The notes below the pieces were generated by a model. The model ran no database searches. It saw only the letters and a list, made by a program, of their open reading frames with translations, and was not told the DNA's origin. From NCBI GenBank assembly GCA_031265765.1, contig JAISCE010000055.1, positions 1 to 53,223 on the forward strand: a DNA stretch of 53,223 nt. Reading direction: 5' to 3'. The DNA comes from Azoarcus sp. GTDB lineage: Bacteria; Pseudomonadota; Gammaproteobacteria; Burkholderiales; Rhodocyclaceae. Within the stretch, counting starts at the first letter, position 1. Each line of letters begins with the position of its first letter. Made by a program: the position numbers and the translations under genes. Below, one piece after another: positions 357 to 53,057 of the stretch.

Positions 357-1298
357 ATGAAGAATGTCCTTGTCGTTTCCTATTCGCAAAGCGGACAACT
401 CGCCGACATCGTCGCCGCCCTGACGCGCCCGCTGCTGGAGGCCGGGACGGGTATCCGCCACGAAGTGCTGCGCCCTGTGCCGGCTTTTCCGTTTCCATGG
501 CCGTTTCTTGCGTTTTTCGACGTTTTCCCGGAATCGGTGCGGCTCGATCCGCGCCCCAACCAGCCGCTCATGCTGGCGTCCGGCGCGGAATTCGATCTCG
601 TGATCCTGGCGTGGCCCGTGTGGTTTCTTTCTCCGGCGCAACCGGTCACCGCTTTTCTGCAAAGCGCCGAAGGCAAGCGGCTGCTTGCCGGTAAACCCGT
701 GGTGAGCGTGGTCGTCTGCCGCAATATGTGGCTGGCCGCGTTCGATACGCTGAAAACGCTGGTGGCGGAAGCGGGCGGGCGGCTCGTCGATCATGTGGCC
801 TTTACCGATCGCTCCCCGTCGCTGGCGACGTTCATCACGACGCCGCGCTGGATGTTGACCGGGCGGCGCGACCGTTTTCTCGGTCTGCCGCCCGCCGGGG
901 TGGACGCCCGTCAAATCGCGGGCGCGGCAAGGTTCGGAAACGCGCTGGCCGATGCGCTTGCGCGCGGCGAGGAAAAGCATGGCCGGCCCATGCTGGGCGG
1001 TCTGCGCGCGGTGACGGTGACGCCCCATCTGGTGCTTTCCGAACGCGCCGGGCGGCGCGCTTTCCGAGTCTGGTCGAGACTCATCCACTGTTGCGGCCGC
1101 GCCGGTCAATGGCGGCGAATGCCGGCGCTCATGCTTTTCGTGCTTTATCTCGTGGCAATGATCCTTACTGTCGTTCCGCTCAATCTCATCTTGCAGCGCC
1201 TCGCCGCGCCCTTGCTTGCCCGGCGCATTGCGGCGCTCGTGCGCCATTACGAACAACCTTCCGGCGCGGGCGATGCGCGCATGATTGCCCATGAATGA
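357..1298 (+). CDS. darA: dialkylresorcinol condensing enzyme-like flavoprotein (DarA family)
   Basis: A 313-residue protein whose N-terminus reads KNVLVVSYSQSGQLADIV, a flavodoxin-type FMN-binding loop at residues 8-18, followed by an alpha/beta body. A hydrophobic helix near residues 257-279 probably anchors it to the membrane. DarA proteins work with the ketosynthase DarB to make dialkylresorcinols: DarB joins two acyl chains to a cyclohexanedione and DarA aromatises the ring. The next gene is a DarB-like ketosynthase and overlaps this one by 8 bases (ATGAATGA), so they are translationally coupled. The flavodoxin-like part and the pairing are seen directly; the substrate is inferred. The ATG at 357 fits the start of the FMN loop, with a GGAG about 11 bases upstream. 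Confidence 0.72.
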   Translation: MKNVLVVSYSQSGQLADIVAALTRPLLEAGTGIRHEVLRPVPAFPFPWPFLAFFDVFPESVRLDPRPNQPLMLASGAEFDLVILAWPVWFLSPAQPVTAFLQSAEGKRLLAGKPVVSVVVCRNMWLAAFDTLKTLVAEAGGRLVDHVAFTDRSPSLATFITTPRWMLTGRRDRFLGLPPAGVDARQIAGAARFGNALADALARGEEKHGRPMLGGLRAVTVTPHLVLSERAGRRAFRVWSRLIHCCGRAGQWRRMPALMLFVLYLVAMILTVVPLNLILQRLAAPLLARRIAALVRHYEQPSGAGDARMIAHE

Positions 1299-2442
1299 AG
1301 TTTTCATTACCGCCACGGCGGTCGCCCTGCCCAATGCGCCCATCGACAACGATACCGCCGAAGCCGTGCTCGGCAAGGTCGGCGGCCAGCCGTCGCGCGC
1401 GCGCCGCATCGTTTTTCGCCAGAACGGCATCAAAAGCCGCCACTATGCGATAGACCCGACAACCGGCGCACTCACGCATTCCAACGCCGGACTCACCGCC
1501 GAAGCCGTCCGCGCCCTCGGCGAGAGCGGTTTTGCGCCTGGCGACATTCGCTGCCTCGTCACGGGCACTTCCATGCCCGATCAATTGATGCCCAATCATG
1601 GCGTCATGGTGCATGGCGAATTGGGCAATCCCGCCTGCGAAGTGGTTTCGACGGCGGGTATCTGCCTGTCGGGCCTGACCGCGCTCAAATACGCCTGGCT
1701 GGCGGTGGGATCGGGGGACGCGGCGAACGCGGTGGCGACGGGGTCCGAAATTTCTTCCGCGATCCTGCGGGCCGAGCATTTCGCCGCCGAAAACGCCGCC
1801 CGCGTCGAGGCGCTCGCAGCGCGCCCGTGGATCGCGTTCGAGAAGGATTTCCTGCGCTGGATGCTCTCCGACGGCGCGGGCGCTTTTCTCGTCGAACCCC
1901 GGCCTCGCGCGGGACGGGTCAACCTGCGGATCGACTGGATCGAACTTTCCTCCGCCGCCCATAGGCTGCCGGTGTGCATGTACGCGGGCGGCGAGCGTGA
2001 GTCCGGCGGCGACGGCGGGTTGACCGGTTGGGGCAGGTTTGCGCCCCGGCAATGGCTGGAAAAGTCGGTCTTTGCTGTCAAGCAAGACGTGAAGCTACTC
2101 GACCGTCACGTCGTCGAGGCAACGCTTGAGACGCCTTTGCGCGCCGTTGCCGCGCGCCGCAGGCTCGAACCGGGAAAGATCGACTGGTTCTTGCCGCACA
2201 TGTCTTCGTATTATTTCCGCCAGCCGATCGCCGATGCTCTGGCGCGTGCGAGCGTGCCCGTTCCGTTCGATCGCTGGTTTACCAATCTGGAAACGCGCGG
2301 CAATACCGGTTCGGCCTCGATCTACATCATGATCGACGAATTGCGCCGCAGCGGACGGCTCGCGCCGGGGAACCGCCTGCTTTGCTTCGTGCCGGAAAGC
2401 GGGCGATTTTCGAGCGGCTTCATGCATCTGACGGTCGTATGA
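1291..2442 (+). CDS. darB: beta-ketoacyl-ACP synthase III, DarB-like
   Basis: A 383-residue thiolase-fold condensing enzyme of the KAS III type. The catalytic triad is visible: Cys125 in AGICLSG, His303 in FLPHMSS and Asn338 in RGNTGSAS. In the Dar pathway this enzyme condenses a beta-ketoacyl thioester with a second acyl unit to form the cyclohexanedione precursor of dialkylresorcinol. The start is taken as the ATG inside the stop region of the DarA-like gene; a TTG two codons earlier is possible. A small unknown gene follows after 21 bases. Against a housekeeping FabH role: it is paired with a DarA-like flavoprotein rather than with fab genes. FabH would be about 320 residues, so the greater length also favours the resorcinol-type group. 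Confidence 0.75.
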   Translation: MNEVFITATAVALPNAPIDNDTAEAVLGKVGGQPSRARRIVFRQNGIKSRHYAIDPTTGALTHSNAGLTAEAVRALGESGFAPGDIRCLVTGTSMPDQLMPNHGVMVHGELGNPACEVVSTAGICLSGLTALKYAWLAVGSGDAANAVATGSEISSAILRAEHFAAENAARVEALAARPWIAFEKDFLRWMLSDGAGAFLVEPRPRAGRVNLRIDWIELSSAAHRLPVCMYAGGERESGGDGGLTGWGRFAPRQWLEKSVFAVKQDVKLLDRHVVEATLETPLRAVAARRRLEPGKIDWFLPHMSSYYFRQPIADALARASVPVPFDRWFTNLETRGNTGSASIYIMIDELRRSGRLAPGNRLLCFVPESGRFSSGFMHLTVV

Positions 2443-2463
2443 TAAAAGTATAATCGCTTCGCC

Positions 2464-2901
2464 ATGGATGCTAACGACGTTCCCCAGGAAGGCAACGCCA
2501 CCCATGAGGGCCAGCGCCGGGCCGTTTATGCGCGCGATGCCGACGGTCATCTCGGACTTGTGCTTTCGCGCGGCTGGCAAGTCGAGGAAATCGTGACCCG
2601 GCAGGCGGTGGAAACCTTCGATGAACTGGCTGCCGCCGCACTTGCAAGGGTGCGCGCCGGGCAAAGTTCGCCGCTCGAATACCACATGTACCGCGTCCGC
2701 ATGGATGTATCCCTGCTTGCCCAGGCAACCGGCCTGTGGCGCTGGCGAGTGCGGCGGCATCTCCGCCCGGCGGTCTTTGCTCGCCTGCCGTCGTCGCTGC
2801 GCACACGTTACGCGGAAGCCCTTGGCATAGAGCCTGCCCGGCTAGACGAAACGACCCCTCAATCCTCCCTTGGCAGGGAGGAAGAAAAGCCGGTTTCCTG
2901 A
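2464..2901 (+). CDS. conserved-looking hypothetical protein, 145 aa
   Basis: I do not recognise this protein. It begins 21 bases after the DarB-like gene on the same strand, so it is probably the third gene of that operon. The middle (about residues 85-125) is helical, with an SLLAQATGLWRWRVRRHLRP stretch that resembles a helix-turn-helix followed by a basic segment. The N-terminal third is polar and acidic. There is no signal peptide or membrane helix. It could be a small regulator or an accessory factor of the lipid pathway; both are guesses. Its codon use matches its neighbours, which supports it being real. Confidence 0.6.
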   Translation: MDANDVPQEGNATHEGQRRAVYARDADGHLGLVLSRGWQVEEIVTRQAVETFDELAAAALARVRAGQSSPLEYHMYRVRMDVSLLAQATGLWRWRVRRHLRPAVFARLPSSLRTRYAEALGIEPARLDETTPQSSLGREEEKPVS

Positions 2902-2966
2902 CGTTTGCTGAAAGGCCAAGAGGGCGCGAAAAATTGGCGCGAGCGGCAGCGGGGCATGGGCGGTCA

Positions 2967-3881
2967 TCACCAGAAGAACCCGCCGCCGCCTCTCCTCTCC
3001 CTTTGTTCCTCGTACTGTCTGTGGTTTCTGATTTCCCGGCATGAGGTGCGCAGATCCTTGTCGCGCACATTGCCGCAGTCCGCGGCAAGGGATCTGCCGA
3101 TGCCGATACAGAAATTGCGCCATTCGGCATTTTTGACGCCGCCGCAGTCCGCGGCGAGGGATTTGCCGATGCCGATGCAGACATTGCGCATGTCGGCGTT
3201 CTTGACGCCGTTGCAGTTGTCCAGGCAGATGTTTCTCAGGTCGGCGTTCTTGATGTCCCCGCAGGAAGCGCCGAAGGACGACATGCGCTTGCAGAAATTG
3301 CGCAAATCCTCATTCATGATGGATTCGCAACCCGATGCATTGGCCCGCGCCTGACGTTCCGTCTTCGGTTTTACCCGTTTCGCTTTGGGCAGCACCGCGA
3401 CAGGCACTTTGTTCGGCGTCGCCCGTACGCACAGCACGGGCCGCGCGCCCGTCCAGGAACCCAGGCTCAACTGATGCCGATTGATCTGCGCATGCGCGAG
3501 AAAATAACCGGGCTTGCGGCCATCGTGCCGTTCGATGAAAAAAATGCGCTCAAGGTCGTCGCGCCAGCGCGGCTCACCATCCAGCATCACCTGGGCCGTA
3601 CTGCCCGGCTTCAAGCCCGAGCGGGAAAAAAACTTGTCCAGCGATCCCGTTTCCTTATAGTGGGCTTCGATATCCCGCCAGTCGGCCACCCGGTAGCCTC
3701 GCCCGAATTCATTCGCGCAAACGCTCTTCGGATAGGTTTCATGGGCGTTCCGGGTGATGGCGAACGATGTTTCCGCCGCCTGCGCGGGCAAGGCGGCAAT
3801 GCCACAGAGATTCAGGAAGAACAGCAAGGCAACGCGCGCGACGGGTTCTCGGGTGAAGGAGTGTGGACGGGGAAAGGGCAT
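2967..3881 (-). CDS. secreted protein with five C-x11-C repeats
   Basis: 304 residues. A basic N-terminus and hydrophobic core (RVALLFFLNLCGIAALPAQA) end in an AQA-AE type signal-peptidase site near residue 36, so it is exported. The C-terminal third carries five copies of a 13-residue unit with Cys at both ends and eleven residues between, of the form C-x-x-(I/V)-K-N-A-(D/E)-x-R-N-x-C. The last copy is more divergent. The spacing suits disulfide loops or metal binding in the periplasm. The middle part (residues 40-170) is not recognised. Two of the repeats come from a 69-bp DNA duplication. It lies just downstream of recR on the same strand, with a 73-base gap. No function is assigned. Confidence 0.75.
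   Translation of the reverse strand: MPFPRPHSFTREPVARVALLFFLNLCGIAALPAQAAETSFAITRNAHETYPKSVCANEFGRGYRVADWRDIEAHYKETGSLDKFFSRSGLKPGSTAQVMLDGEPRWRDDLERIFFIERHDGRKPGYFLAHAQINRHQLSLGSWTGARPVLCVRATPNKVPVAVLPKAKRVKPKTERQARANASGCESIMNEDLRNFCKRMSSFGASCGDIKNADLRNICLDNCNGVKNADMRNVCIGIGKSLAADCGGVKNAEWRNFCIGIGRSLAADCGNVRDKDLRTSCREIRNHRQYEEQRERRGGGGFFW
3072..3209. repeat. two tandem 69-bp units inside the Cys-repeat gene
   Basis: Copies at 3072-3140 and 3141-3209 share the start GCCGCAGTCCGCGGC and match for most of their length. The 69-bp period equals 23 codons, so the reading frame is kept. A diverged third unit starts around 3210. Confidence 0.8.
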
Positions 3882-3954
3882 GACGGCGTTTTTTGTGTGA
3901 TGGCAACGAGCAGGATAGTACCTGAACCCGTGTTTCTTCCGCTCGTCGCATTTC

Positions 3955-4551
3955 CTACAAGGTGCGCCGTTCGGCCAACGCCTGGGCGATGGTGCCGATG
4001 TCGATGTTTTCGAGTTCGCCGCCGACCGGCACGCCGCGCGAGAGGCGGCTGACCGCCAGGCCGCGCGCGGTGAGCAGGGTGGCGAGGGTCAGGGCGGTGA
4101 CTTCGCCTTCGTTGGTGAAGTTGGTGGCGAGGATGACTTCCCGCACCTGGCCATCGCCGGCGCGGGCGAGCAGGCGATCCAACCCCAGTTCGCGCGGGCC
4201 GATGCCGTCGAGCGGCGAGAGCCGCCCCATCAGTACGTAGTAGAGGCCGTCGTAGGACTTGGTCTGCTCGATCATCGCCAGATCGGCGGGCGTTTCGATC
4301 ACGCACAGACGGCTTGCGTCGCGGCGCGGGCTGGCGCAACGCGCGCAGATCTCGTCTTCGGAAAAGGTGTTGCAGCGCGCGCAATGACGCAGCGTCGAAA
4401 GTGCATGATCCATTGCCCGCGCCAGGCGCGCCGCGCCCTTGCGGTCGTGTTGCAGCAAATGGTGAGCCATGCGCTGCGCCGAACGCGGCCCCACGCCGGG
4501 CAGGCAGCGCAGGGCGGCGATCAGTTCGTCGAGACTCGATGGCGCGGCCAT
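3955..4551 (-). CDS. recR: recombination mediator RecR
   Basis: 198 residues, the usual RecR length. An N-terminal helix-hairpin-helix ([13 protein letters not shown], residues 17-29) precedes a four-Cys zinc finger (C57, C60, C69, C72 in HCARC and ICARC) and a Toprim domain ([10 protein letters not shown] through [13 protein letters not shown]). RecR works with RecF and RecO to load RecA onto SSB-coated gaps. Its ATG overlaps the stop of ybaB by one base (ATGA), so the two are translationally coupled, as in many proteobacteria. Confidence 0.97.
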
Positions 4552-4871
4552 CAGAATGGCAACTTGAGTCCCGGCGGCAGGTTGAATCCGGCGGTAAAGC
4601 CGGACATTTTTTCCTGGGTGACGCTTTCCACTTTGCGCACCGCGCTGTTGACCGCCGCCGCCACCAGATCTTCGAGCATTTCGCGGTCGTCCATGACTGT
4701 GGGGTCGATGTTGACCCGCCGCACTTCGTATTTGCCGGTCATCGTGACTTTGACCATGCCCGCGCCGGATTCGCCTTCGATTTCGAGCGTTGCGATCTGG
4801 TCCTGCATTTTCTTCATGTTTTCCTGCATTTGTTGGGCCTGCTTCATCAGCCCGGCAATTCCGCCTTTCAT
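4551..4871 (-). CDS. ybaB: YbaB/EbfC family nucleoid-associated protein
   Basis: 106 residues, matching the family length. The N-terminus has the typical [17 protein letters not shown] helix, followed by the [16 protein letters not shown] strand region and a C-terminal helix. YbaB proteins are small dimeric DNA-binding proteins of the nucleoid. It lies 31 bases downstream of dnaX and overlaps recR, the conserved dnaX-ybaB-recR arrangement. Confidence 0.96.
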
Positions 4872-4902
4872 TATTCGATGGCTCCGTGATGGGTGATACG
4901 GG

Positions 4903-6750
4903 TTACAACAATCTGACCGTGTTTTCGTTCAGGCTGGCATCGAAATGTTCGATCAGTCCGAGTACGAATGGGTCGCGTTCGAGCGCCACCATAGCTTGGG
5001 CATGGCGCTCGCGGCGGTCGAGTTCGTCGCGCTGCGCGGGGGTTTGCCCGGCAGTGGCGCCGATTTCGATGTGCAGTTTCATCGGGCGGCCAAGAGCGCG
5101 GGCAAGTTCGCTTTCGATGCGCTCGGATACGCCGCCGTTGATTTCGAGCAAATGACGATAGATGTCCGAGAGGCGCAGGCGCAAGTCGTCACCGGCGCAT
5201 TCGATCCATTCGCAATGCTGCGCCAGTTCACGCGCCAGTCCGGAAAGTTTGAGCGCATGTACGGTTTCGCGCCAATCGGCGCGCGCGAGAGCCGCCGCGA
5301 CCGCCGTCTCGCCGCGGACAGGCTCGTTCCGGGCGGCGGGGTTCTGCGGCGAAGGAGGGATATTTTCGGTTTGCGCGGCGCCATATGCGGCGGCGGATTC
5401 TCGTAATGGAGGGAATGTATTTCCGTCCGGCGTTTTCTTTTCCTGGTTTTTGCGCGCGTCCGTCGCGGGAATATGGATCGCGCCTTCGGGCGGCAGGGCT
5501 TCCCAGGGCGGCACATCGCCGGCGGGTTTCGGCCCGGATGGCGCGGCGGATGCCTGTTCCGGCGCGGGCGGAACCGCCGCCGTCTTTTTCTCCGCTGCGG
5601 GCGGGAGGAGCGGTTTCCGGGCCGCGCCGTCCGGGCCGCCGCCAGCCGCCGGCATGCCGGGCGGCGGCTGTTCGGGGCGGAACGCCAGCAGCCGCAACAG
5701 GCTCATGGTGAAGCCAGTGTATTCGTCGGGCGCAAGCGCCAGTTCGTCGCGGCCATGGATGGCGATCTGGTAGGCGAGTTGCAGATATTCGGCGTCGAGC
5801 CGTCCGGCGTGGGCGGACAGTTGCGCGCGCTCGCCTTCGTCGGCCACGGCGGCGGGCGCGAATTGCACCAGCGCAAGCCGTGCAAGAAGCGTCGCCAAAG
5901 CCTGCAAGGCGGCATCGAACGACAGGCTGCGCGCTTCCATGCCGTCGGCCACGGCAATCAGGGCTTCGGCATCGCCCGCGGCCAGCGCATCGAGAATCGC
6001 GTACAAGTGCTCGTCGCCCACGGTGCCGAGCATATGGGTGACTTGTTCTTCGAGCACTTGGCCCGCGCCATGGGCGATGGCCTGGTCGAGCAGCGAGAGC
6101 GCATCCCGCATCGACCCGCTGGCGGCGTGCGCGAGGTGACGCAACGCGCCCGGCTCGAAGGGCGTCGACTCGGCTTCGAGGATGCGCGCGAGGTGTCCGG
6201 CGATTTGCCCCGGCGGCATCTGCTTGAGGTTGAATTGCAGGCAGCGCGACAGCACCGTGACCGGGATTTTCTGCGGATCGGTGGTGGCGAGAATGAATTT
6301 GACATGCTCGGGCGGTTCTTCGAGCGTTTTCAGCATGGCGTTGAAGGCATGCCCGGTGAGCATGTGCACTTCGTCGATCATGTAAACCTTGTAGCGCCCC
6401 GCCACCGGCGCATATACGGCGCGGTCGAGCAGCGCCGCCATGTCGTCGACGCCGCGATTGGAAGCGGCATCCATCTCGACATAGTCTGGAAAGCGGTCGG
6501 CGTCGATGGCGCGGCAGGCATCGCATTGCCCGCAGGGCGCGGCGCTCACGCCGGTTTCGCAATTGAGCGCCTTGGCGAGAATACGCGAAATCGTGGTCTT
6601 GCCCACGCCGCGCGTGCCGGTGAAAAGCCACGCATGATGCAGCCGCCCGGTGGCGAGCGCATGGGAGAGCGCGCGGACGACATGCTCTTGCCCGACCAGC
6701 GTCTCGAACGATTTGGGCCGCCACTTGCGCGCCAGAACCTGATAACTCAT
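4903..6750 (-). CDS. dnaX: DNA polymerase III subunits gamma and tau
   Basis: 615 residues starting [12 protein letters not shown], the canonical DnaX N-terminus; an in-frame extension further upstream would run through the 4.5S RNA gene and is rejected. The clamp-loader ATPase has Walker A GTRGVGKT (residues 45-52), zinc ligands C64, C73, C76 and C79, a Walker B MIDEV near 124-128 and the SRC motif near 168-170. A Pro/Ala-rich linker (about 380-490) leads to the tau-specific C-terminal domain, which binds the polymerase and helicase. I see no convincing A6G slippery site with a nearby -1 stop, so a separate gamma product by frameshifting is not supported. Confidence 0.96.
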
Positions 6751-6780
6751 GGGGGGCGATTCTACCGCGCGCGCAAGGCA

Positions 6781-6807
6781 AAAGGGCGTTGCCCGGCAAC
6801 GCCCCGA
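6781..6807 (-). terminator. rho-independent terminator of ffs
   Basis: On the minus strand GGGCGTTGC and GCAACGCCC form a perfect 9-bp stem around a CGG loop, followed directly by TTTT. It sits just after the 4.5S RNA and about 30 bases before the dnaX start, so it separates the two transcripts. Confidence 0.85.
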
Positions 6808-6813
6808 AATCCG

Positions 6814-6918
<105 letters not shown>

Positions 6919-6923
6919 GGGCG

Positions 6924-6929
6924 ATTGTA
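6924..6929 (-). promoter_or_regulatory. -10 box of the 4.5S RNA promoter
   Basis: TACAAT on the minus strand, about 7 bases before the predicted 5' end of the RNA, followed by a GC-rich discriminator. The -35 is poor: GGGCTT at an 18-base spacing is the best candidate. Confidence 0.55.
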
Positions 6930-7014
6930 CAGTAAAGATATCCGGGCAAGCCCGCTCATCGTATGAATGTTTCGTTTGCTGCGCCGGTATGGGCGTTCAA
7001 ACGGCGCCGAGACC

Positions 7015-8568
7015 CTATCCCGCGAGGCTTTCGACCTCGAATCCCACGATGTTTCGCCTGTCGCGGCTGAACTCCACGCCGATCAGGTGAATGGGCTGTC
7101 CATTGCCGCGATATTTGCCGGCGTAGCCCTTGTCCTTGATCTGCTGGAGCGCGCGGCCTTCCGGGGAGGCTTCCACGACCTTGAACTCGAACAGATACAC
7201 CTGTCCGTTGAAACGCATCGCCATGTCCAGCCGACCGGTCGAGGAAGCGTCCTCCGGCACGACATCCAGCCCCATCGAGATGAAATAGGCGTAGAACACA
7301 CTGGCGTAATAGCCCTCGTATTCGCCCACGTCGTTCTTTCGGTGCCAATCCGCCGGAATGCCCGCGAAATAGGCGCAGATGAGCGCCTGCAATCCGGCGA
7401 AATCGTTGGCGCGAAGCAGGCTGTAGAGGCTGGGATGGCGTGCGTCCCGGATCTGCTGCGGGCGCAGCCGTTGCAGGAGCGCGCCGTACAGGCTGGCGCG
7501 GACTTCGCGGTTGGGAAAGCGCAACGCGTATTGCCTGACCGCGCCGAGGCTCTCGAAATGGTCGATGGTCAGGTAGCCCGTCTGGAACAAGAGCGCGATG
7601 GGGTGGATATCGCCGACCTCGAAAGAGGAAATCAGGATGTCGGTGGCCGTCATTCGTTCCAGGTCGGGAAGATAGATCGACTGATCGAGCAGTACATCCA
7701 GTAAAAAGGTCGGCGTGCCCGTCTCGAACCAGTAGGGGCGGAATTCCCGGCTATCGAAAAGCAACAGCAGGTCGAAAGGGTTGTAGACCGCAGCGCCCGT
7801 CCAGTTGTAGCCGTTGTACCAGTCGCGGATTTCTTCCCTGTCCAGTCCGGATAATTCCGGCGCGAATACGGTATCCACATCTTGATCGGTATAGCCGCAG
7901 ATGGCCGAGTATCGGGAATCCAGGGTGATATCTTTCAGATTGTTCAGCCCCGAGAAGATGTTGACCTTGCTGAATTTGGAGACGCCAGTCAGCAGGACGA
8001 ATTTGACATGAGCGTCCTGTCCCTTGACGACGGAGTACAGGTCACGCAGCCCGTCGCGCATTTCGCGGGCAAGTTCAGGGCGGGTGAGATTGTCGAGGAT
8101 GGGTTTGTCGTATTCGTCGATCAGGATCACCGCACGTCGACCGAATTTTGCCTCCGCACGCTGGATGAGCGTCGAGAATGTGTCCGGAATGCCCCATGTT
8201 TCCGGCAGGGCGTCGAGACCGAGGGTCGCCGCGTTGTTTTGCAGTTGCCAGCGAATCCGCCCTTCAAGTTGCTGCGGCGCGCGCAATACGCCTTCGGCGA
8301 AACTGATCCGGATCACGGGGTACTTGAGCGACCAGTCCCATTTGTCGTGACAGTCCAGCCCCCTGAACAGGGGTTCGTTGCCCTGAAAGAGTTCGCCCAG
8401 CGTGTCGAGAAAAAGACTCTTGCCGAAGCGGCGCGGACGGGAAAGAAAGTAGCACTTTCCCTCCTCGGCCAAACGAAGGGCAAACGAAGTCTTATCGACG
8501 TAGTAGTAGCCTTCCTCGCGGATTTCGCGGAAGGTCTGGATGCCGATAGGAAGTTTTTTGCGGGTCAT
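7015..8568 (-). CDS. AAA-ATPase-like/PD-(D/E)XK nuclease family protein (DUF1703 type)
   Basis: 517 residues from MTRKKLPIGIQTF. The N-terminus has the family signature GYYYVDKTSF, a P-loop-like SRPRRFGKSLFL (residues 43-54) and a Walker-B-like VILIDEYDKP. The C-terminus carries a nuclease-type core, GRLDMAMRF then VYLFEFKVV (D...E-x-K), with a QIKDKGYAGKY tail. These multi-copy proteins are often found in accessory DNA; their function is unknown and they are suspected mobile or defence-like elements. An upstream in-frame start would add 25 residues lacking family character. It stands alone between the 4.5S RNA gene and comEC, with about 95 bases on either side. Confidence 0.88.
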   Translation of the reverse strand: MTRKKLPIGIQTFREIREEGYYYVDKTSFALRLAEEGKCYFLSRPRRFGKSLFLDTLGELFQGNEPLFRGLDCHDKWDWSLKYPVIRISFAEGVLRAPQQLEGRIRWQLQNNAATLGLDALPETWGIPDTFSTLIQRAEAKFGRRAVILIDEYDKPILDNLTRPELAREMRDGLRDLYSVVKGQDAHVKFVLLTGVSKFSKVNIFSGLNNLKDITLDSRYSAICGYTDQDVDTVFAPELSGLDREEIRDWYNGYNWTGAAVYNPFDLLLLFDSREFRPYWFETGTPTFLLDVLLDQSIYLPDLERMTATDILISSFEVGDIHPIALLFQTGYLTIDHFESLGAVRQYALRFPNREVRASLYGALLQRLRPQQIRDARHPSLYSLLRANDFAGLQALICAYFAGIPADWHRKNDVGEYEGYYASVFYAYFISMGLDVVPEDASSTGRLDMAMRFNGQVYLFEFKVVEASPEGRALQQIKDKGYAGKYRGNGQPIHLIGVEFSRDRRNIVGFEVESLAG

Positions 8569-8661
8569 GGCCGGATGCGTCACAGATGAGCCGGAGAAAT
8601 TGTACTGGAAGGACGCCGCTTTCACGGAAAAAGGCTCCGTCACAAGCCGGGGCGAGTATTT

Positions 8662-11076
8662 TCAGCGTCCATGCCAATAACGCGGCGCGGTTTCCCGCCA
8701 GCCCGAGGCTGCCAGCTTCCCGCCCTTCGCATCGAGCAACACCGTTCCCGCATTGTCCGTCCGCATGTTGCGAGCGCCCGCGCCTTCCCATCGCGCCAGT
8801 ATGCGCGGATGAGGATGACCATAACGATTGCGGTATCCCGCCGAAAATATCGCCACTTCCGGGCGCACGGCGGCTACGAAAGCCGTGGACGACGATGAGC
8901 GGCTGCCATGGTGTGCGGCCGCAACCGCCGTACTTGCCAGATCGTCGCCGTATCGGGACACCAGCCCGTTTTCGCCGCCGTTTTCGATGTCGCCGGTCAG
9001 CAACAACGAGACGCCGCCCGCCCCGCGCACCCGCAACACGCAGGAAAGACTGTTGCCGCGCCGCTCGCCGGAGAGCGCATCCGGCGCCAGCACGGCGAAA
9101 TCGACGCCGTCCCAGCGCCATTGCAGGCTGCTGATGCAAGGAATGCCGCGTACCGCCCCGGAGGCATCCTCCCGCGCCGGTCCATCGGCGCCATTGCCTG
9201 CGATGATTTCCCCGGCCTCGACGCGCGCCCGTACACTCTCCAGTCCGCCCGCATGGTCGGCGTCATCGTGAGAGATGACTATTGCATCGAGCCGCCTGAT
9301 GCCCCGCGCGCGCAGATAGGGTACGACCACGCGCTCGCCGGCATCGCTCTCGCGTCCGTAGAGCGGACCGGCGTCGTAAAGCAAATCGCGGCGCGCGGTC
9401 TGCACATGTACCGCCAGGCCCTGGCCGACATCGAGCACGGCGGCGCGGAAGTCGCCTTGCTGCGGTCGCTCCGGCCGCCAGAAGAAAAAACCGCCGAGCA
9501 CCGCCAGTGCCGCGAGGCGTCCAGGCGTGCCGCGCGGCAGTATCGTCACCACGGCTGCCGCCGCTGTCACCGCCAGCAGCCACGGCGGCGGCAAGGGATG
9601 TTCGTGCAGGGCGAATGAAAACGAAGATAAATACTGCAAGGCGTCCATCATCCACGCGGTCAGCGTGTGCGCCAGTTCGAGCAGCCAACCGGCGGGATAT
9701 ATCGCCGCGACCAGGACGCAGGGCGTGATGGCGAAGCTCACCAGCGGGATGGCAAATGCATTGGCGAATGGCGACGCAAGCGAAAATCCCTGGAAAAGCG
9801 CCACCAGCGCCGGAATAGTTGCCAGCGTGATCGCCAGTTGCAGCCTGACCGCCGCGCGCCAGCCCCGCACTGGCGCGGTTCGTCCGCCCACCGTCAATAA
9901 AATCGTTGCCACCGCACCGAAGGAAAGCCAGAACCCCGCCGCCAGTGTGGCCCACGGATCGACCGTCAGCACGGCGAGCAAAGCCAGCGCCAACACATTG
10001 CGCGCGCTCATCTCGCGCCGTGCCGCCATGGCCAGCGCCGCCGCAGCCAGCATGACGAACGCGCGCTGCACCGGAATGCCGAGTCCGGCGAGCAGCGCAT
10101 AAACGCCCGCCGCCGCCAGCCCGGCCAAAGCGCCGGCCAATCGCGCCGGACAGCGCGCCGCGAGCCATGGCGCACGCCGCCACAGCGCCATGCACAAGCC
10201 GCCTACGGCCAGCGCCACCAGCGAAATGTGCAAACCTGAAATCGCCACTAGATGCTGCACGCCGGTACGGCGCAGGATATCCCATTGATCTGGCGGAATC
10301 GCGCCCTGGTCGCCCACGGCCAGCGCCGCCAGGATGCCGCGGTACGGCGCATCCGGCAGCGCCGTCTCGAATTGCCGGCGGATGTGCGCCCGCAGCCGAT
10401 GCACGCGATTCATGAAGCCGCCGCCGTCCGTCGCCAGCCGCTCGCCGCGCCGGACGTAGCCGGTGGCCCGCAATCCCCGTTCCAGCAACCAGGCTTCGTA
10501 GTCGAAACCGCCCGGTACCGCCGAGCCGTGCGGCCGTTTCAGCCTCGCCGTGAGCTGCCAGCACTCTCCCGGCTGCAATGCGGGCGCTGTGTGCGCCGCC
10601 CGGGAGTCGCCCCAATGATTGCGGTACCACGACAACAGCATTCGCCCCGGCGTCCCCGCGCGGGAATCGTCTTGCGCATCCCCATTCGCGCCACGACAAT
10701 CGGACGCGGGTTCGGACTCGAACACGAAGCGCACGCCATCGCCACTATCGCCGGGCAGCGACGCGATGCGTCCGACGAGTTGCACATCGCGCCCTTCGAG
10801 AATCTCATCGAGCGCGTCGGCCATGCGTATATCCGCACGCCATGCCGCATAGGCATATCCGGCCAGGATTGCCGCCGCCAGCCCGGACGCCCAGATTGCG
10901 CAAGCGACATACGCCGTCCGTTTTCTCCCGCGCATCCGCCCGCAAAATACGAGCGCGACAAGCGCCATGGCCGCCACGATCCAGCCATGGCCCGCCCAGA
11001 AGGGCAAGACCGCCGAAACCTGTAGCAGGCAAATGCCCGAGAAAATGCCGAAAACGTTTTTACACATGACATACAC
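8662..11076 (-). CDS. comEC: DNA internalisation competence protein ComEC/Rec2
   Basis: 804 residues. It starts with N-terminal membrane helices and an OB-like DUF4131 region. The ComEC core follows (GAIPPDQWDILRRTGVQHL, then VAISGLHISL) with many membrane helices. A C-terminal metallo-beta-lactamase domain carries ISHDDADHAGG and ends near AAHHGSRSSSS. ComEC forms the inner-membrane channel for single-stranded DNA uptake in transformation. The GTG start has GAGG four bases upstream; the ATG three codons later is an alternative. It begins only 34 bases after the ketosynthase-like gene on the same strand, so it may be read from the acyl-lipid operon. No other com or pil genes lie in the window. 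Confidence 0.95.
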   Translation of the reverse strand: MYVMCKNVFGIFSGICLLQVSAVLPFWAGHGWIVAAMALVALVFCGRMRGRKRTAYVACAIWASGLAAAILAGYAYAAWRADIRMADALDEILEGRDVQLVGRIASLPGDSGDGVRFVFESEPASDCRGANGDAQDDSRAGTPGRMLLSWYRNHWGDSRAAHTAPALQPGECWQLTARLKRPHGSAVPGGFDYEAWLLERGLRATGYVRRGERLATDGGGFMNRVHRLRAHIRRQFETALPDAPYRGILAALAVGDQGAIPPDQWDILRRTGVQHLVAISGLHISLVALAVGGLCMALWRRAPWLAARCPARLAGALAGLAAAGVYALLAGLGIPVQRAFVMLAAAALAMAARREMSARNVLALALLAVLTVDPWATLAAGFWLSFGAVATILLTVGGRTAPVRGWRAAVRLQLAITLATIPALVALFQGFSLASPFANAFAIPLVSFAITPCVLVAAIYPAGWLLELAHTLTAWMMDALQYLSSFSFALHEHPLPPPWLLAVTAAAAVVTILPRGTPGRLAALAVLGGFFFWRPERPQQGDFRAAVLDVGQGLAVHVQTARRDLLYDAGPLYGRESDAGERVVVPYLRARGIRRLDAIVISHDDADHAGGLESVRARVEAGEIIAGNGADGPAREDASGAVRGIPCISSLQWRWDGVDFAVLAPDALSGERRGNSLSCVLRVRGAGGVSLLLTGDIENGGENGLVSRYGDDLASTAVAAAHHGSRSSSSTAFVAAVRPEVAIFSAGYRNRYGHPHPRILARWEGAGARNMRTDNAGTVLLDAKGGKLAASGWRETAPRYWHGR

Positions 11077-11110
11077 GATACCTCATACGTCATGCGCACG
11101 CAAACCCATG

Positions 11111-11608
11111 TCATGTTTCCAGCATTTGCCATCGCCCAAGATGTTCGCGCTCCCCCGGTTCGACCTGTCCGCACAGTACGCGCGCATGGCGGCCCGCTTG
11201 CAAAAACACGGCGGCAAGCATCCGCATGCGCTGCCAGTGCATCGCCGCGTCGCCCGTCCAGGGCTGGTAAAGCACGCTTTCGATACAGGGGAAGCTTTGC
11301 TGCAAGGGGATGGCGGCAAGAATGGGCTGGGTAGCGAGAAAGTCGAATGGAAAGGGCGATTCGCGGGCGATGACGACATCGGTGACAACGCGGATACCCG
11401 CGGCGCGCGCGCCAGTGCGCGATCCCCAGAGCACCATGGTGGAGCGGGCGGGTTCACCGGCGAGGCAGGCTGCCACGCCCGCGATGACCAGTTCGGCCAG
11501 CGCGCCGGCGCGACGCAACGGCACGGCGGATTGACGGCGCGCAAGCGCGGAGAGTGTGGCGGAGTCGAGGCATTGCTCCTGGAAATCGCCGATATGGAGA
11601 ACACTCAA
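11111..11608 (-). CDS. ketosynthase-like partner lacking the active-site Cys
   Basis: 165 residues. The pattern (RRAGALAELVIAGVAAC, then TMVLWGSRTGA, then SPFPFDFLATQP) resembles the N-terminal half of a beta-ketoacyl synthase, of the Ketoacyl-synt_2 type found as small partner subunits in aryl-polyene and dialkylresorcinol loci. The catalytic Cys motif is absent: the equivalent stretch reads FPCIESVLYQ. It may act as a chain-length or scaffold subunit for the full ketosynthase, whose stop codon overlaps this start (ATGA). The family call is by pattern recognition and remains uncertain. Confidence 0.6.
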   Translation of the reverse strand: MSVLHIGDFQEQCLDSATLSALARRQSAVPLRRAGALAELVIAGVAACLAGEPARSTMVLWGSRTGARAAGIRVVTDVVIARESPFPFDFLATQPILAAIPLQQSFPCIESVLYQPWTGDAAMHWQRMRMLAAVFLQAGRHARVLCGQVEPGEREHLGRWQMLET

Positions 11609-12663
11609 ATTTTTTCTCCGGTCTCGCGGTAACGCTCGATGATGACGGTTGCGGTGCTGCCGCCAAAGCCGACGAGATTGAAAAGCAGGCGTCGCGGCTG
11701 GCCGTAGCGCGCCTGCGCGGCGGGCATATCGAGCAAGGCGAGCAGTATGGTCAACTCCGCCGGGCCGCTCGCCCCCAGGGTATGGCCGAGACGGCGCTTG
11801 AAGGTGATCTCCGGGGGCCGCCGGGAGCCGAACAGGAGTTCGAGCGCGACTTCTTCGGGTTCATCGGTGCTGGACATGCGGCTGCGGTGGGGTTTTATGA
11901 GATCGATGTCGTTCGCTGCCAGACCGGCGTCATCCAGCGCGGCGGCGATGTTGGCGGCGATGACGCGGCCATCGGGCGTCGGCGAGGTGACGGAGTAGCC
12001 GTCGGTTCCCAGGCGGCAGGCGGCGATTCGCCAGGCGGCGGCTTGCGTCGTGAGCCGCAGTCCGGCGACTGCTTCGCCGAGGATGAGACCCTCGCTGTTT
12101 TCCTCGCGCGCAAGGAGTCCGAGGCTGGCAAAACCGGCGAGTGTCGTATCGCAGCCGAATTCAGCGCCCAACACCAGCGCCTCGTCGATTTCACCGTGGC
12201 CGATCAACATAGCGGCGGCTTCCAGTGCGGCAAAGCCCGAGGTGCAAGAGGTGGAATACAGATATGGCTCGGTTTCGATATCGAAGGCTGCGCAGATTTC
12301 GCCGCTGAAGCCGGCAAGGTCGTCGAAGGCGGCAGTATCCGCGCCGCCTGCGCGGGCATGGGCTTCGACGGCGCCGGTCGCCAGCGCGGAAGATCCAACG
12401 AAAAGCGGCAGGCCGGAGAACGGCAATGGCGACAGGCCGGCTGCGAGTTCGGCATTGATAAGCCCGAGTGCGCGCCGGGTGCGGGCCGTCCAGTCTGTTT
12501 CGGGCAACGGCAGCGCGAACCAGGGGTAGCAGGCGTCGGGCAATTCGCGCCGCGAAACGGCTTTTTTGTCTGCGAGCCAGGCTTCGGCAGCCATCGAAGC
12601 CGACAGGCCCAGAGCCGAGGCGTGGCCGATGCGGTCGATGTACACCGGGCGCACGGTTTTCAC
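11605..12663 (-). CDS. beta-ketoacyl-ACP synthase (FabF/FabB-like)
   Basis: 352 residues from a GTG that overlaps the ACP stop codon (GTGA). The triad is visible: Cys140 in YSTSCTSG, His259 in LIKPHRSRMSSTDEPE and His294 in KRRLGHTLGASG, with Lys289 before it. The motif around the first His departs from the usual PHGTGTxxND but keeps the His and an acidic tail. At about 350 residues it is shorter than FabF (about 410). Being joined to a dedicated ACP and an exporter points to a specialised acyl chain, not to bulk fatty acid synthesis. Confidence 0.85.
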   Translation of the reverse strand: MKTVRPVYIDRIGHASALGLSASMAAEAWLADKKAVSRRELPDACYPWFALPLPETDWTARTRRALGLINAELAAGLSPLPFSGLPLFVGSSALATGAVEAHARAGGADTAAFDDLAGFSGEICAAFDIETEPYLYSTSCTSGFAALEAAAMLIGHGEIDEALVLGAEFGCDTTLAGFASLGLLAREENSEGLILGEAVAGLRLTTQAAAWRIAACRLGTDGYSVTSPTPDGRVIAANIAAALDDAGLAANDIDLIKPHRSRMSSTDEPEEVALELLFGSRRPPEITFKRRLGHTLGASGPAELTILLALLDMPAAQARYGQPRRLLFNLVGFGGSTATVIIERYRETGEKI

Positions 12664-12932
12664 GCCGGCCCCTCCGTTTTGCCTTGCGCTTGCAGCCAGT
12701 CCGCGAGGCTGGCGATATTGGCGAACACGCGGCGGGTTTCCTTGCTGTCTGCCAGGCGCACGCCGAATCGTTTTTGCAATGCGATCGATAGTTGCAAGGC
12801 ATCGAGCGAGTCGAGCGAGAGCCTCGTTCCAGCGCCGAACAGGATTTCGTCGTCGGCGATGGAAGCGGGGTCGAAGTCCTTGTCGCAGGTCTCCACGATC
12901 AGGGTTTTCAGGGCAAGTTTCAGGTTGGTCAT
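12660..12932 (-). CDS. acyl carrier protein
   Basis: 90 residues. The phosphopantetheine site is Ser42 in the motif LSLDSLDALQL. The surrounding helices, including FDPASIADDEILFG before it and a C-terminal ANIASLADWLQ, fit the four-helix ACP fold. It is encoded between the exporter permease (42 bases upstream) and the ketosynthase (overlapping), so it is the dedicated carrier of this pathway, comparable in role to DarC of dialkylresorcinol loci. Confidence 0.9.
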   Translation of the reverse strand: MTNLKLALKTLIVETCDKDFDPASIADDEILFGAGTRLSLDSLDALQLSIALQKRFGVRLADSKETRRVFANIASLADWLQAQGKTEGPA

Positions 12933-12973
12933 GTGAGAATCGAAAATCGTTTTGGTCGAAAACCGGCGCGCGG

Positions 12974-14227
12974 TCAGTCATGCGCCCGGCGGCCCAGGAA
13001 AACGGCTGCGGCCAGCGCAAGAAAACCGAAGCATGCCAGTGCCGCCGCCGCAGGCAAGATATCGGCGATACCGCCGTGGCGCAGCATGACGTGGTGGATG
13101 GCTTCGAGCGCCCAATCCATCGGCGACAGGCGCGTCCAGGGCTGCATGGACGCCGGCATGACGAATCTGGGCACCATGATGCCACCAACGGCGCCCATGA
13201 TGATGTTGCCCGCGCCGCCGAGGATGGTGGCTTGTTCGCTGCTGCGCGCGAAGCTGGCGATGAGGAGCGCCCAGCCGACCGCCGCCGCGCCGACGGCGAG
13301 GCTGAGCAGCCACAGGGCCGCGAGGGCTTGCGCGCCGTTCGGCAGGGTGAAGGCTTCGCCGCCGCACAGGGGAACGAGCCAGCGCCCGATGGCGATCATG
13401 ATGACGGCCTGCGCCTGGTTGAGCAGGACGAAAGGGACGAATTTGCCCGCAAGCACGAGGCTGAAGGAGACTTTCTGCGTGGCGAGTCGTTGCAGGGTGC
13501 CGCGCTGGCGCTCGCCGACGAAGACCGCCGAAATCGGAATGACGACAAAGAACATGGAGAAAATGAGCCATGCCGGGACGCTTTGCTGTACCGAAGAAGG
13601 CGGCGCGAAGGTTTTGCCATCGGCGCGGTCCACGGCTTCGACATGAATTTCCGGCGGGCCGACGCGCTCGGTGACGCGGCGCAGTTCCGGAATCATCAAG
13701 TTTTGTCCCAAGCGTTCGAGCACATGTGCGAGCCACACCCTGATGACCGCCGCTTCGGCTTGCTGGCGAAAACCTTCCCGCAGGGCGTACGGCACGGCGG
13801 GATCGAGCAGGAAGCGCAGGGCCGGCGTCCGGTTGCTGCCGACCTGGCGGGCGAAGCCCTGCGGAATGACCAGGACGAAGACGGCCTCGCCGGTTTCCAC
13901 CCGGCGGCGGGCGTCCGCTTCGCCGGACGGGTGTTCGCGCTTTTCAAAAACATCGCTCGTGCCGAGTTGCTCGTCGAGCGCCTGCGAAACAGGGGTCGAA
14001 TCGAGATCGAGCACGGCATAGCCGATGGCGGCGGGCTGTCGCGTGGAGAAAGGCTCCGCGAGTGTGAGCGACATGACCAGGATGAAGACCGCGGGCATGA
14101 TGAAAAGCGCCGCGAGGCCATGGCGGTCGCGCGCGAGCGCCAGCAGTTCCTTCTTCCACAGGGCGGCGAGACGTACCGGGCCGCGAAACGGCGAGGAAAC
14201 CGGAGGGGCAGTGTTTCCGGAAAGCAG
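12974..14227 (-). CDS. ABC-2 type transporter permease, probable CTG start
   Basis: 417 residues if started at CTG 14227. The layout is that of ABC-2 exporters: a first membrane helix (LAALFIMPAVFILVMSL), a large periplasmic loop (about residues 65-220) and five C-terminal helices. The first ATG in frame (14098) lies inside helix 1 and would cut it. No ATG, GTG or TTG exists between there and the in-frame stop of the ATPase gene. The CTG at 14227 has a perfect AAGGAGG five bases upstream and gives the normal cytosolic KKELLALARDR lead-in. It pairs with the ATPase 18 bases upstream and probably exports the product built by the downstream ACP and ketosynthases. Confidence 0.82.
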   Translation of the reverse strand: MLSGNTAPPVSSPFRGPVRLAALWKKELLALARDRHGLAALFIMPAVFILVMSLTLAEPFSTRQPAAIGYAVLDLDSTPVSQALDEQLGTSDVFEKREHPSGEADARRRVETGEAVFVLVIPQGFARQVGSNRTPALRFLLDPAVPYALREGFRQQAEAAVIRVWLAHVLERLGQNLMIPELRRVTERVGPPEIHVEAVDRADGKTFAPPSSVQQSVPAWLIFSMFFVVIPISAVFVGERQRGTLQRLATQKVSFSLVLAGKFVPFVLLNQAQAVIMIAIGRWLVPLCGGEAFTLPNGAQALAALWLLSLAVGAAAVGWALLIASFARSSEQATILGGAGNIIMGAVGGIMVPRFVMPASMQPWTRLSPMDWALEAIHHVMLRHGGIADILPAAAALACFGFLALAAAVFLGRRAHD

Positions 14228-14232
14228 TTCGT

Positions 14233-14239
14233 CCTCCTT
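14233..14239 (-). promoter_or_regulatory. ribosome binding site that decides the CTG start
   Basis: AAGGAGG on the minus strand is a full anti-SD match, followed by ACGAA and then CTG. It lies in the 18-base gap after the ATPase stop codon, where no standard start codon is available in the permease frame. Confidence 0.7.
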
Positions 14240-14245
14240 GTGCGC

Positions 14246-15169
<924 letters not shown>

Positions 15170-15218
15170 GGCGACGGGACGATGGCGGAAGATGGCGCGG
15201 ACGCCGAAGCGGAGAAGC

Positions 15219-16226
15219 TTACTTCACCGCCTTGCCCAGCGCAGCAAAAAACGCTTTTTCACGCGCGCCCTGTCCGCGCAGCAAACCCGCGAGCCGCTTG
15301 GGATCGAGCGGGTCGCGGTCCCGGATCATCCGTGCGGTGGCCAGGGCGAATTCGCGCCAGCCGTCGCCGATCCCGACCAGTTCCGCCGCCAGGTCGACCA
15401 GGGCCGGACGAGCCGCGAGGGGCGCGGCTTCTTCGAGAAAGGCCGCGTACATAAAGCGAAAACCCGCGCCGCCCGTCCCGATTTCTTCCTGCATTCGTAC
15501 AAGGTGCCCAATATAGCGTTTGCTTGCTTGGGGATCGGCGACGCCCGGCAGGCGATCGAAGGCGCGCGCCAGCCGCTCGATCCCCCTGACCCCGATGATC
15601 GGCAGCGGCGTGCAGAGCATCATCCGCACGGTTTTTTTGATCGAAGCGGGAATCGCCCGCCGCCAGTCCGGCTCGCGCGGCGGGGTGGCCGGATAGTAAA
15701 TCAGCCCCTTGGGCGCGAGCGCGCCCTTGGCGAAACGCGCTTTCGCCAGATCGGCGGGCGCGCAGCGCACGGAGTCTTCCAACACGGGATCGGAGAGCAG
15801 ATAGTCGCCGCTTTCCCCATCGCGCCCATAGGCGAGCAGATTGTGGGCATTGAAATGGAAACGGAAATCCGGCGGCATGAAAGGCAGCCAGAATACCGAG
15901 ACTTGCAGCCCAACCAGACAACCGGCGTCGAGCAGTTCATCGAGCCGCGCCACGCCCCTGCCGGGACGGCGGAATGTCTCGGTGCGCATCGAAAAACGCA
16001 AGGGCTTCTGCAAACCGCGAATGATCGCGCCGGGCGGCATCCGGTAAGACACCAGCGGCAAGCCGGAGAGTTTGATGAACGGCAAATAGGCGAACGTGAG
16101 CGCCGAAGCAAGGCCGAAAGCCATCGGCTCGGACAGGGGCAAGCCATTGTGACGCACGATGGCGCTCATCACACCGCTTTCGCAGTGGGACGCCTGACGG
16201 TGGACGAAGCCGGGCGAGGTCGTCAT
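15219..16226 (-). CDS. BtrH-like (DUF4872) putative ACP-dependent acyltransferase
   Basis: 335 residues. The N-terminal half matches the BtrH N-terminal domain pattern. It has a His-Cys pair (H14, C15 in QASHCESG), then LPLSEPMAFGLASALTFAYL, and a later His128 (HFNAHNLLAYG) with Asp146 (LLSDP), a papain-like arrangement. The C-terminal half is of the DUF4872 type. BtrH moves an acyl group from a carrier protein to an amine in butirosin biosynthesis. Here it heads the operon holding an ACP, ketosynthases and an exporter, so the inferred role is transfer of the ACP-bound chain to an acceptor, perhaps the exported molecule. The acceptor is unknown. Confidence 0.72.
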   Translation of the reverse strand: MTTSPGFVHRQASHCESGVMSAIVRHNGLPLSEPMAFGLASALTFAYLPFIKLSGLPLVSYRMPPGAIIRGLQKPLRFSMRTETFRRPGRGVARLDELLDAGCLVGLQVSVFWLPFMPPDFRFHFNAHNLLAYGRDGESGDYLLSDPVLEDSVRCAPADLAKARFAKGALAPKGLIYYPATPPREPDWRRAIPASIKKTVRMMLCTPLPIIGVRGIERLARAFDRLPGVADPQASKRYIGHLVRMQEEIGTGGAGFRFMYAAFLEEAAPLAARPALVDLAAELVGIGDGWREFALATARMIRDRDPLDPKRLAGLLRGQGAREKAFFAALGKAVK

Positions 16227-16288
16227 TTCAGGATCCGCCTGTGGTTTTCCGGGCGAGGACGCCGTTCGCCGTGGATCGGGGCGGCGGC

Positions 16289-17926: not shown

Positions 17927-18430
17927 TGGAAATTCCGTGGACGAAGCAGGACGAAGCGGCGGATTATAGCCGCGGAAGTCCCTGGGAGTCCCGGCTGTGC
18001 GAGCGGTACGAAGCCGGGGCATCATCCAGTGAAGTATCTTCCTTGGCGTTCAGGCGACCCGAACCTCGATAGAAGTGCATTGTAGCCTGCCCGAGCGGCG
18101 CATGTCATGGCGGCATCAATGAGACGCCGTTTTGGTTCCGGGTGGATTGGGTTTATTGAGCGGCGTTGGGCGGACGGCGGTCACGCGGACGAAGGCGGGC
18201 AAATCGGGACGTTCGATCTCGTGGATCGATTGTTTCCCCGGAAAAGGTAGAATATCATCCTTAAAAACGCGCACGACTTTGGCATGCGTACTCCTTTTCC
18301 CTGTCTTGATTTCCAGCTTGCGGTGTCCGGTCCAGACGGACGGCCAGCGGAACGAAGATGGATGGAGTCTCTGTTTTTCAAACCCTTGTGGACATCGTTG
18401 AATGTCCCCGGTGCAAGAAGGTAGTTTTCG
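17927..18430. other. 504-base intergenic region holding repeat copy A
   Basis: No convincing gene. The 82-bp dispersed repeat lies at 18119-18200. A minus-strand frame antisense to zapA runs through 18116-18652; its distal part reads PAFVRVTAVRPTPLNK and is shared with repeat copy B, so it may be a relic. No zapB-like gene is seen upstream of zapA. Confidence 0.5.
18119..18200 (+). repeat. dispersed 82-bp repeat, copy A
   Basis: It begins ATGAGACGCCGTTTTGGTTC and matches the reverse complement of 52976-53057 at about 76 of 82 positions with no gaps. It lies upstream of zapA. Similarity stops sharply at both ends. The sequence contains GAGCGGCGTTGGGCGGACGG in its middle. Confidence 0.85.
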
Positions 18431-46374: not shown

Positions 46375-46504
46375 ATCCTGCTCCACGCTTTGCACTGCCA
46401 CGATTTTTGTAGGCACGCAGGGATTATGAGTGAAAAAGTTACGACGGGAAAGCTTGCAGTCGGCATTTTCGTCGATTCGTACCGGTTTTCATGTGTTTAT
46501 GGAA

Positions 46505-50087: not shown

Positions 50088-50264
50088 TCTGGCAGATTCG
50101 AGCTGATAATCTATGTGGATACGCAATTTTTCGCGTACCGATGTCGTTCGAGTGATTTTATCAATTTGTTCCGGGCCGATTTGCCTTAACGCGCCGCAAG
50201 AGGAAATATGCCCGTGGGGCTACATCTATTGGCGGGCCGTAACTGTTACATTCAGGAGATGGGC

Positions 50265-52995: not shown

Positions 52996-53057
52996 CAGCC
53001 GTCCGCCCAACGCCGCTCAATAAGTCAAATCCACCCGGAACCAAAACGGCGTCTCAT
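52976..53057 (-). repeat. dispersed 82-bp repeat, copy B
   Basis: The reverse complement of this segment matches 18119-18200 at about 76 of 82 positions without gaps. It covers the last codons and stop of the YddA-type gene and the DNA beyond. Read on the minus strand it ends a frame ETPFWFRVDLTY before a stop; copy A gives ETPFWFRVDWVY at the same place. Confidence 0.85.

Follow-up and report, generated by a model that had tools for sequence, protein, structure and literature searches.

A dar gene cluster of arcuflavin type, broken between darD and darE, and a BtrH-like acyltransferase as a candidate for its ester step

The flexirubin clusters of Chitinophaga pinensis and Flavobacterium johnsoniae combine darA and darB with aryl-polyene genes, and their product is a polyene–resorcinol ester whose polyene part begins, in C. 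pinensis, from tyrosine via the ammonia-lyase FlxA (as described in parts of PMC3992019). Arcuflavin is likewise a predicted ester of a polyene acid and a resorcinol. For Azoarcus sp. BH72, Table 1 of PMC3949708 gives the gene order darA, B, D, E, F, G, H, I, C, J, K, in which darD is annotated as conserved hypothetical, darE as a 'BtrH-like peptidase', darF as an ATP-binding cassette (ABC) ATPase, darI as a permease, darC as an acyl carrier protein (ACP), and darJ as a ketosynthase. The formation of a resorcinol has been reported upon co-expression of darB and darA of C. pinensis (PMC3992019) and also from the Azoarcus DAR proteins (PMC3949708). The same known arcuflavin-type gene set is present in the stretch analysed here, the 53,223 nucleotides (nt) of contig JAISCE010000055.1 of Azoarcus sp. 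(assembly GCA_031265765.1), referred to below as the window, where it is broken at the border between darD and darE.

The source genome (2.58 Mb in 98 contigs, 98.15% complete, the window being contig C36) carries its dar genes as two convergent runs that lie 8.2 kb apart, namely darA, darB, and darD on the forward strand (357–2901) and darE, darF, darI, darC, darJ, and darK on the reverse strand (from 16226 down to 11111), with recR, dnaX, an AAA-ATPase/PDDEXK gene, and comEC in between. By order and annotation, which are the basis of the match with Table 1 of PMC3949708, the window and BH72 share the same dar genes, which are arranged alike within each half, and in both genomes the polyene genes are located elsewhere; darA/darB together with aryl-polyene genes are also what the source genome has in common with the flexirubin clusters. 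In contrast, the BH72 cluster forms a single run with two small extra genes, darG and darH (antitoxin and PilT type), which the two runs of the window lack. The two gene blocks noticed in the initial annotation, made from the sequence alone, are real, but darD had been overlooked.

That the two halves cooperate had been proposed from their complementary content and closeness, and the comparison with other genomes bears this out. Among the best 80 of 582 confirmed DarE relatives in named genomes, a set that leans to close relatives (the closest being metagenome-assembled Zoogloeaceae, Azoarcus, and one betaproteobacterium), darE lies directly behind darD on the same strand in all 80 loci, with a gap of −28 to 254 nt. 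A darB is visible in 79 of them, a contig end cutting off the other one, darF in 75, and a darA homologue, 36–79% identical, in 73. The order A-B-D-E-F-I-C-J occurs as a single run in 40 loci, whereas in 22 A-B-D-E faces a convergent J-C-I-F block, and 18 are truncated at contig ends or arranged otherwise. Convergent dar halves are common, but the break in those loci lies after darE. Across 369 genomes of the class, DarE scores above the family cut-off in 18 and DarB in 21, and 18/18 DarE genomes also contain DarB; the Fisher tests on this co-occurrence treat genomes as independent, and the 18 genomes represent 17 families. A block that is common without darA and darB was not seen in these genomes; three further ones, G033, G121, and G158, gave weak DarE-like matches below the cut-off and lack DarB. 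A chance neighbourhood of the dar halves is ruled out by the constancy of the darD–darE pair among loci and of DarE with DarB among genomes.

The break exactly between darD and darE is an uncommon feature of an otherwise known cluster type. Within the 21 genomes of the genus, darD and darE are adjacent in 13 and not adjacent in three, the source genome, G016, and G009; the contigs of G011 and G007 begin inside darE, so that adjacency is undecided there, and neither DarE nor a strong DarB was found in G001, G003, and G014. In G016 and G009, darA, darB, and darD stand in the middle of a contig, and the next gene is not darE but a long one on the opposite strand, which Pfam assigns to the CheA/Hpt type in G016 and which corresponds to an open frame in the same position in G009. 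Their darF-I-C-J-K is found on a different contig, where no darE precedes it, only 292 nt being visible before darF in G016. The darE of G016 lies where a third contig begins and has no further dar gene before it; in G009, which is 78% complete, no darE was found. Moreover, a DarB tree joins the source genome to G009 and G016 at a support of 89/94 (the mark of the tool being 95/80) and leaves outside this group G020, in which the operon is unbroken over the part that its contig covers (A to C). Since two related genomes share the break, it is probably real and no assembly error. An artefact of assembly, with a continuous dar cluster in the true genome, would be in keeping with the 98 contigs, with the contigs of G011, G007, and G016 that end in or beside darE, and with short local repeats close to each break point (tandem copies of 69 nt at 3072–3209 and an 18-nt pair at 16210–16266); nevertheless, it is highly improbable in view of the mid-contig arrangement of G016 and G009, of G011, which repeats the window order E-F-I-C-J-K-comEC-dnaX-recR, and of a self-comparison of the window, which gives no sequence common to both break points. 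The DNA similarity to the relatives in the genus ends at 2831–2852 on the left and at 16212–16233 on the right, at the borders of darD and darE. At the left break point there is a frame of 304 residues (2967–3881, reverse strand) with 69-nt internal repeats, which has no Pfam match and for which no counterpart was detected on the G011 contig bearing recR. The simplest history would be a single rearrangement in the ancestor of the subclade, in which the segment that runs from darE to recR was inverted or relocated, followed by further shuffling in G009 and G016.

DarE reaches 446.9 bits, with a cut-off of 300, against the NCBIfam family NF053550, 'BtrH-related acyltransferase DarH', a name by which the curators already consider it an acyltransferase; NCBIfam DarH and DarG are here equated by position with Azoarcus darE and darD, respectively, and apart from the name DarE showed no difference from this family. 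The view that a BtrH-like step was new to the Dar pathway has to be given up, as the gene is listed in the Azoarcus cluster published in 2014 (darE in Table 1 of PMC3949708) and in this curated family. Residues Cys15, His128, and Asp146 of DarE, a putative triad, are kept in 80/80 loci. The predicted structure of DarE matches the solved structures of CtaG, AziU3/U2, and CcbD at 10–20% sequence identity, and for CcbD the acyl donor is a carrier protein; this predicted fold would fit the transfer of a finished chain from a carrier protein. Searched by sequence against the PDB, DarE had no credible relative, the hits being laccases (E 0.33 and 0.97) and, among others, designed coiled coils (E 0.006–0.79). 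A second, lone darE, 86% identical to that of the window, occurs with a cas3-like gene just upstream in G008 (C24, 9437–10408, locus L102), a genome that also carries an intact dar operon.

The aryl-polyene genes of the source genome, which the initial annotation had missed, lie on contigs C17, C18, and C76. The first of these contains a ketosynthase, a tryptophan-halogenase-like gene, a LolA-like protein, a thioesterase, a glycosyltransferase, a 773-residue protein with a weak RND-type exporter match under the cut-off, an acyltransferase-like protein (PF03279 just under the cut-off), an AMP ligase fused to an ApeI-like dehydratase, a further ApeP-like match, and two small carrier-protein-like genes, of which Pfam confirms one. 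C18 encodes a ketosynthase, a FabG-type reductase, and an ApeP-like dehydratase, and C76 an acyltransferase together with a PF13723 protein. Genes of these kinds are given for the arcuflavin and flexirubin polyenes in parts of PMC3949708 and PMC3992019. Because the genome also holds them, an arcuflavin-type polyene–resorcinol ester is the likely product, as judged from the genes. In the set of 369, PF13723 is found in 18/18 DarE genomes and 86 overall, which makes it an unspecific polyene marker that could in principle match darK, and the ApeP-like family in 13 of the 18 and 37 overall. The PF13723 match stands beside further polyene genes in G308 and on a contig other than that of the window in the source genome.

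Taken together, the window probably contains an arcuflavin-type dar cluster of a Zoogloeaceae-like bacterium, split between darD and darE, in which DarE would esterify the resorcinol with an ACP-bound chain and DarF–DarI would export the product. DarB and DarA, as reported for their homologues, would convert two acyl precursors into a 2,5-dialkylresorcinol, while the aryl-polyene genes elsewhere in the genome would supply an ACP-bound polyene. DarE, as a papain-fold acyltransferase, could then accept an acyl chain, most probably the polyene, from an ACP on Cys15 and hand it to a resorcinol hydroxyl to form the ester, whereas DarJ–DarK with DarC may serve the extension or loading of the acyl chain. 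The transfer from ACP to an acceptor before export, suggested in the initial annotation for the BtrH-like protein, thereby gains a probable chain and a probable acceptor, the polyene and the resorcinol, respectively, which are also the partners in arcuflavin and flexirubin.

Several observations weigh against this assignment. CcbD forms an amide with a sugar amine and has Glu as the acid of its triad, whereas an ester and Asp146 are proposed for DarE. No enzyme activity of DarE, including an ester synthase role, was found in print among the open-licence PMC listings, which are weak evidence. Three of the 21 DarB genomes, G124, G218, and G241 (L170, L168, and L169), have darA and darB side by side and both polyene markers without DarE, and tblastn with the window proteins detected no darD, F, I, C, or J near their darAB; therefore, DarE is not required in every such gene set. 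The polyene markers track DarB (PF13723 being present in 21/21 DarB genomes) as closely as DarE, so that they do not single out the latter. The ApeP marker is missing from 5/18 DarE genomes. Finally, a polyene-type match falls within the fetched flanks of only 11 of the 80 dar loci, which means that the polyene and dar sets are often apart.

DarE might alternatively act on an acceptor other than the resorcinol, moving a DarC-bound chain to another lipid or loading DarB. Its invariable place beside darD makes a role near ring formation possible, and the three genomes that retain darAB and the polyene markers without DarE would also accord with it. However, resorcinol formation from darB and darA of C. 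pinensis (PMC3992019, in part) indicates that the ring needs no DarE, the resorcinol reported from the Azoarcus proteins may point the same way, and G039, G097, G244, and G322, with DarB-like matches below the cut-off, lack both DarE and the polyene markers, which leaves another acceptor improbable. A second alternative is that another enzyme makes the ester, either a ligase of the FlxW type or DarJ–DarK without decarboxylation, DarE being accessory or hydrolytic. The ligase-like FlxW proposed for the ester step of C. pinensis in parts of PMC3992019 favours this alternative and likewise speaks against DarE as the ester-forming enzyme.

The ketosynthase genes bear on the same question. Cys140, His259, and His294 of DarJ align with the Cys-His-His positions of another ketosynthase of the genome, which we take to be catalytic. 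Gln replaces the first His in 34/66 scored loci (e.g., L007, L014, L022, and L033), a tally that refers to the best ketosynthase match per locus, which may not always be DarJ. The Gln-bearing proteins belong to betaproteobacterial relatives outside the own group of the window, where the change suggests a non-elongating DarJ-type ketosynthase and would agree with an ester made by DarJ–DarK. Nevertheless, the DarJ of the window retains Cys-His-His, and CcbD, among the nearest folds of DarE, forms its bond by carrier-protein-dependent transfer; an ester-forming enzyme other than DarE thus seems quite unlikely. The preferred reading, with DarE as the esterifying enzyme, could be extended to a capping-and-export module, darE-F-I-C-J-K, apart from ring formation by darA-B-D, in which a non-elongating DarJ–DarK pair would pass the polyene from its ACP to DarC, DarE would esterify, DarF–DarI would flip the product out, and the modules would be uncoupled on the chromosome of the subclade; this extension is tentative and rather unlikely to hold. 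The likeness of DarJ–DarK–DarC to the AmcF–AmcG ketosynthase/cyclization factor pair, in which a ketosynthase goes with a ketosynthase-like partner lacking motifs and with an ACP (parts of PMC10698177), does not extend to membership, since darJ reaches 75.1 bits against AmcF with a cut-off of 325. A darK profile matched nothing in the PF13723 protein of C76 and gave a weak match to a C17 ketosynthase (E 3.1e-4, probability 39%).

In the ring-formation half, DarB exceeds the cut-off of the StlD/DarB family (566.8 vs 450 bits) and stays below that of the narrower NF053539 (462.7 vs 550 bits), and its Cys125, His303, and Asn338 are kept in 76/76, 78/78, and 78/78 covered rows, respectively. Directly 5' of darB, the genus genomes examined contain darA homologues that are 71–82% identical; the product of this putative darA had no match in Pfam or NCBIfam profile scans, and among plasmid sequences three Streptomyces 'hypothetical protein' matches at 37%. 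The darD product is assigned by profile scan to the NCBIfam 'DarG family dialkylresorcinol biosynthesis protein' and falls below the cut-off of the flexirubin DarG model (113.5 vs 170 bits). In the other half, the best NCBIfam match of DarF is of the drrA type, below the cut-off, Ser42 of DarC is conserved in 70/70 cases, and darI would start at CTG, because AAGGAGG precedes this codon.

Table. Positions of the dar genes and of one intervening gene in the window
Gene	Position	Strand	Assignment	Evidence
darA	357..1298	+	resorcinol aromatase / condensing protein	open reading frame of 313 aa; named by position before darB
darB	1291..2442	+	StlD/DarB beta-ketosynthase, ring closure	NF005293 2.1e-170, above cut-off
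darD (Azoarcus naming)	2464..2901	+		NF053536 1.8e-47, above cut-off
AAA-ATPase-like/PDDEXK_9	7015..8643	-		between comEC and dnaX; present in G011 too
darK	11111..11608	-	short ketosynthase-fold partner	165 residues
darJ	11605..12663	-	ketosynthase	PF02801 7.9e-12, PF00109 7.9e-8
darC	12660..12932	-	acyl carrier protein	PF00550 4.9e-5
darI	12974..14227	-	ABC-2 permease	PF12698 3.5e-33
darF	14246..15169	-	ABC exporter ATPase	PF00005 1.8e-30
darE (NCBIfam 'DarH')	15219..16226	-	BtrH-like acyltransferase	NF053550 3.9e-134, above cut-off

A scan for promoters and terminators gave counts close to those of shuffled sequence. Elsewhere in the window, an 81-nt inverted repeat, 94% identical, is located near both ends of a 35-kb stretch (18119–18199 and 52977–53057), and a PTS EIIC and EAL domain fusion protein is encoded at 47892–50126 on the reverse strand, near a GGDEF protein at 44473–46416.

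Which enzyme links the polyene to the resorcinol in the flexirubin and arcuflavin pigments is not demonstrated in the parts of the literature considered here, PMC3992019 proposing FlxW. Because of its close companionship with DarB and its predicted fold, DarE is a sharp, testable candidate for this ester step, in which a resorcinol lipid destined for export would probably receive a yellow polyene cap. Moreover, the subclade with the broken operon provides natural cases for establishing which dar parts must stay together.
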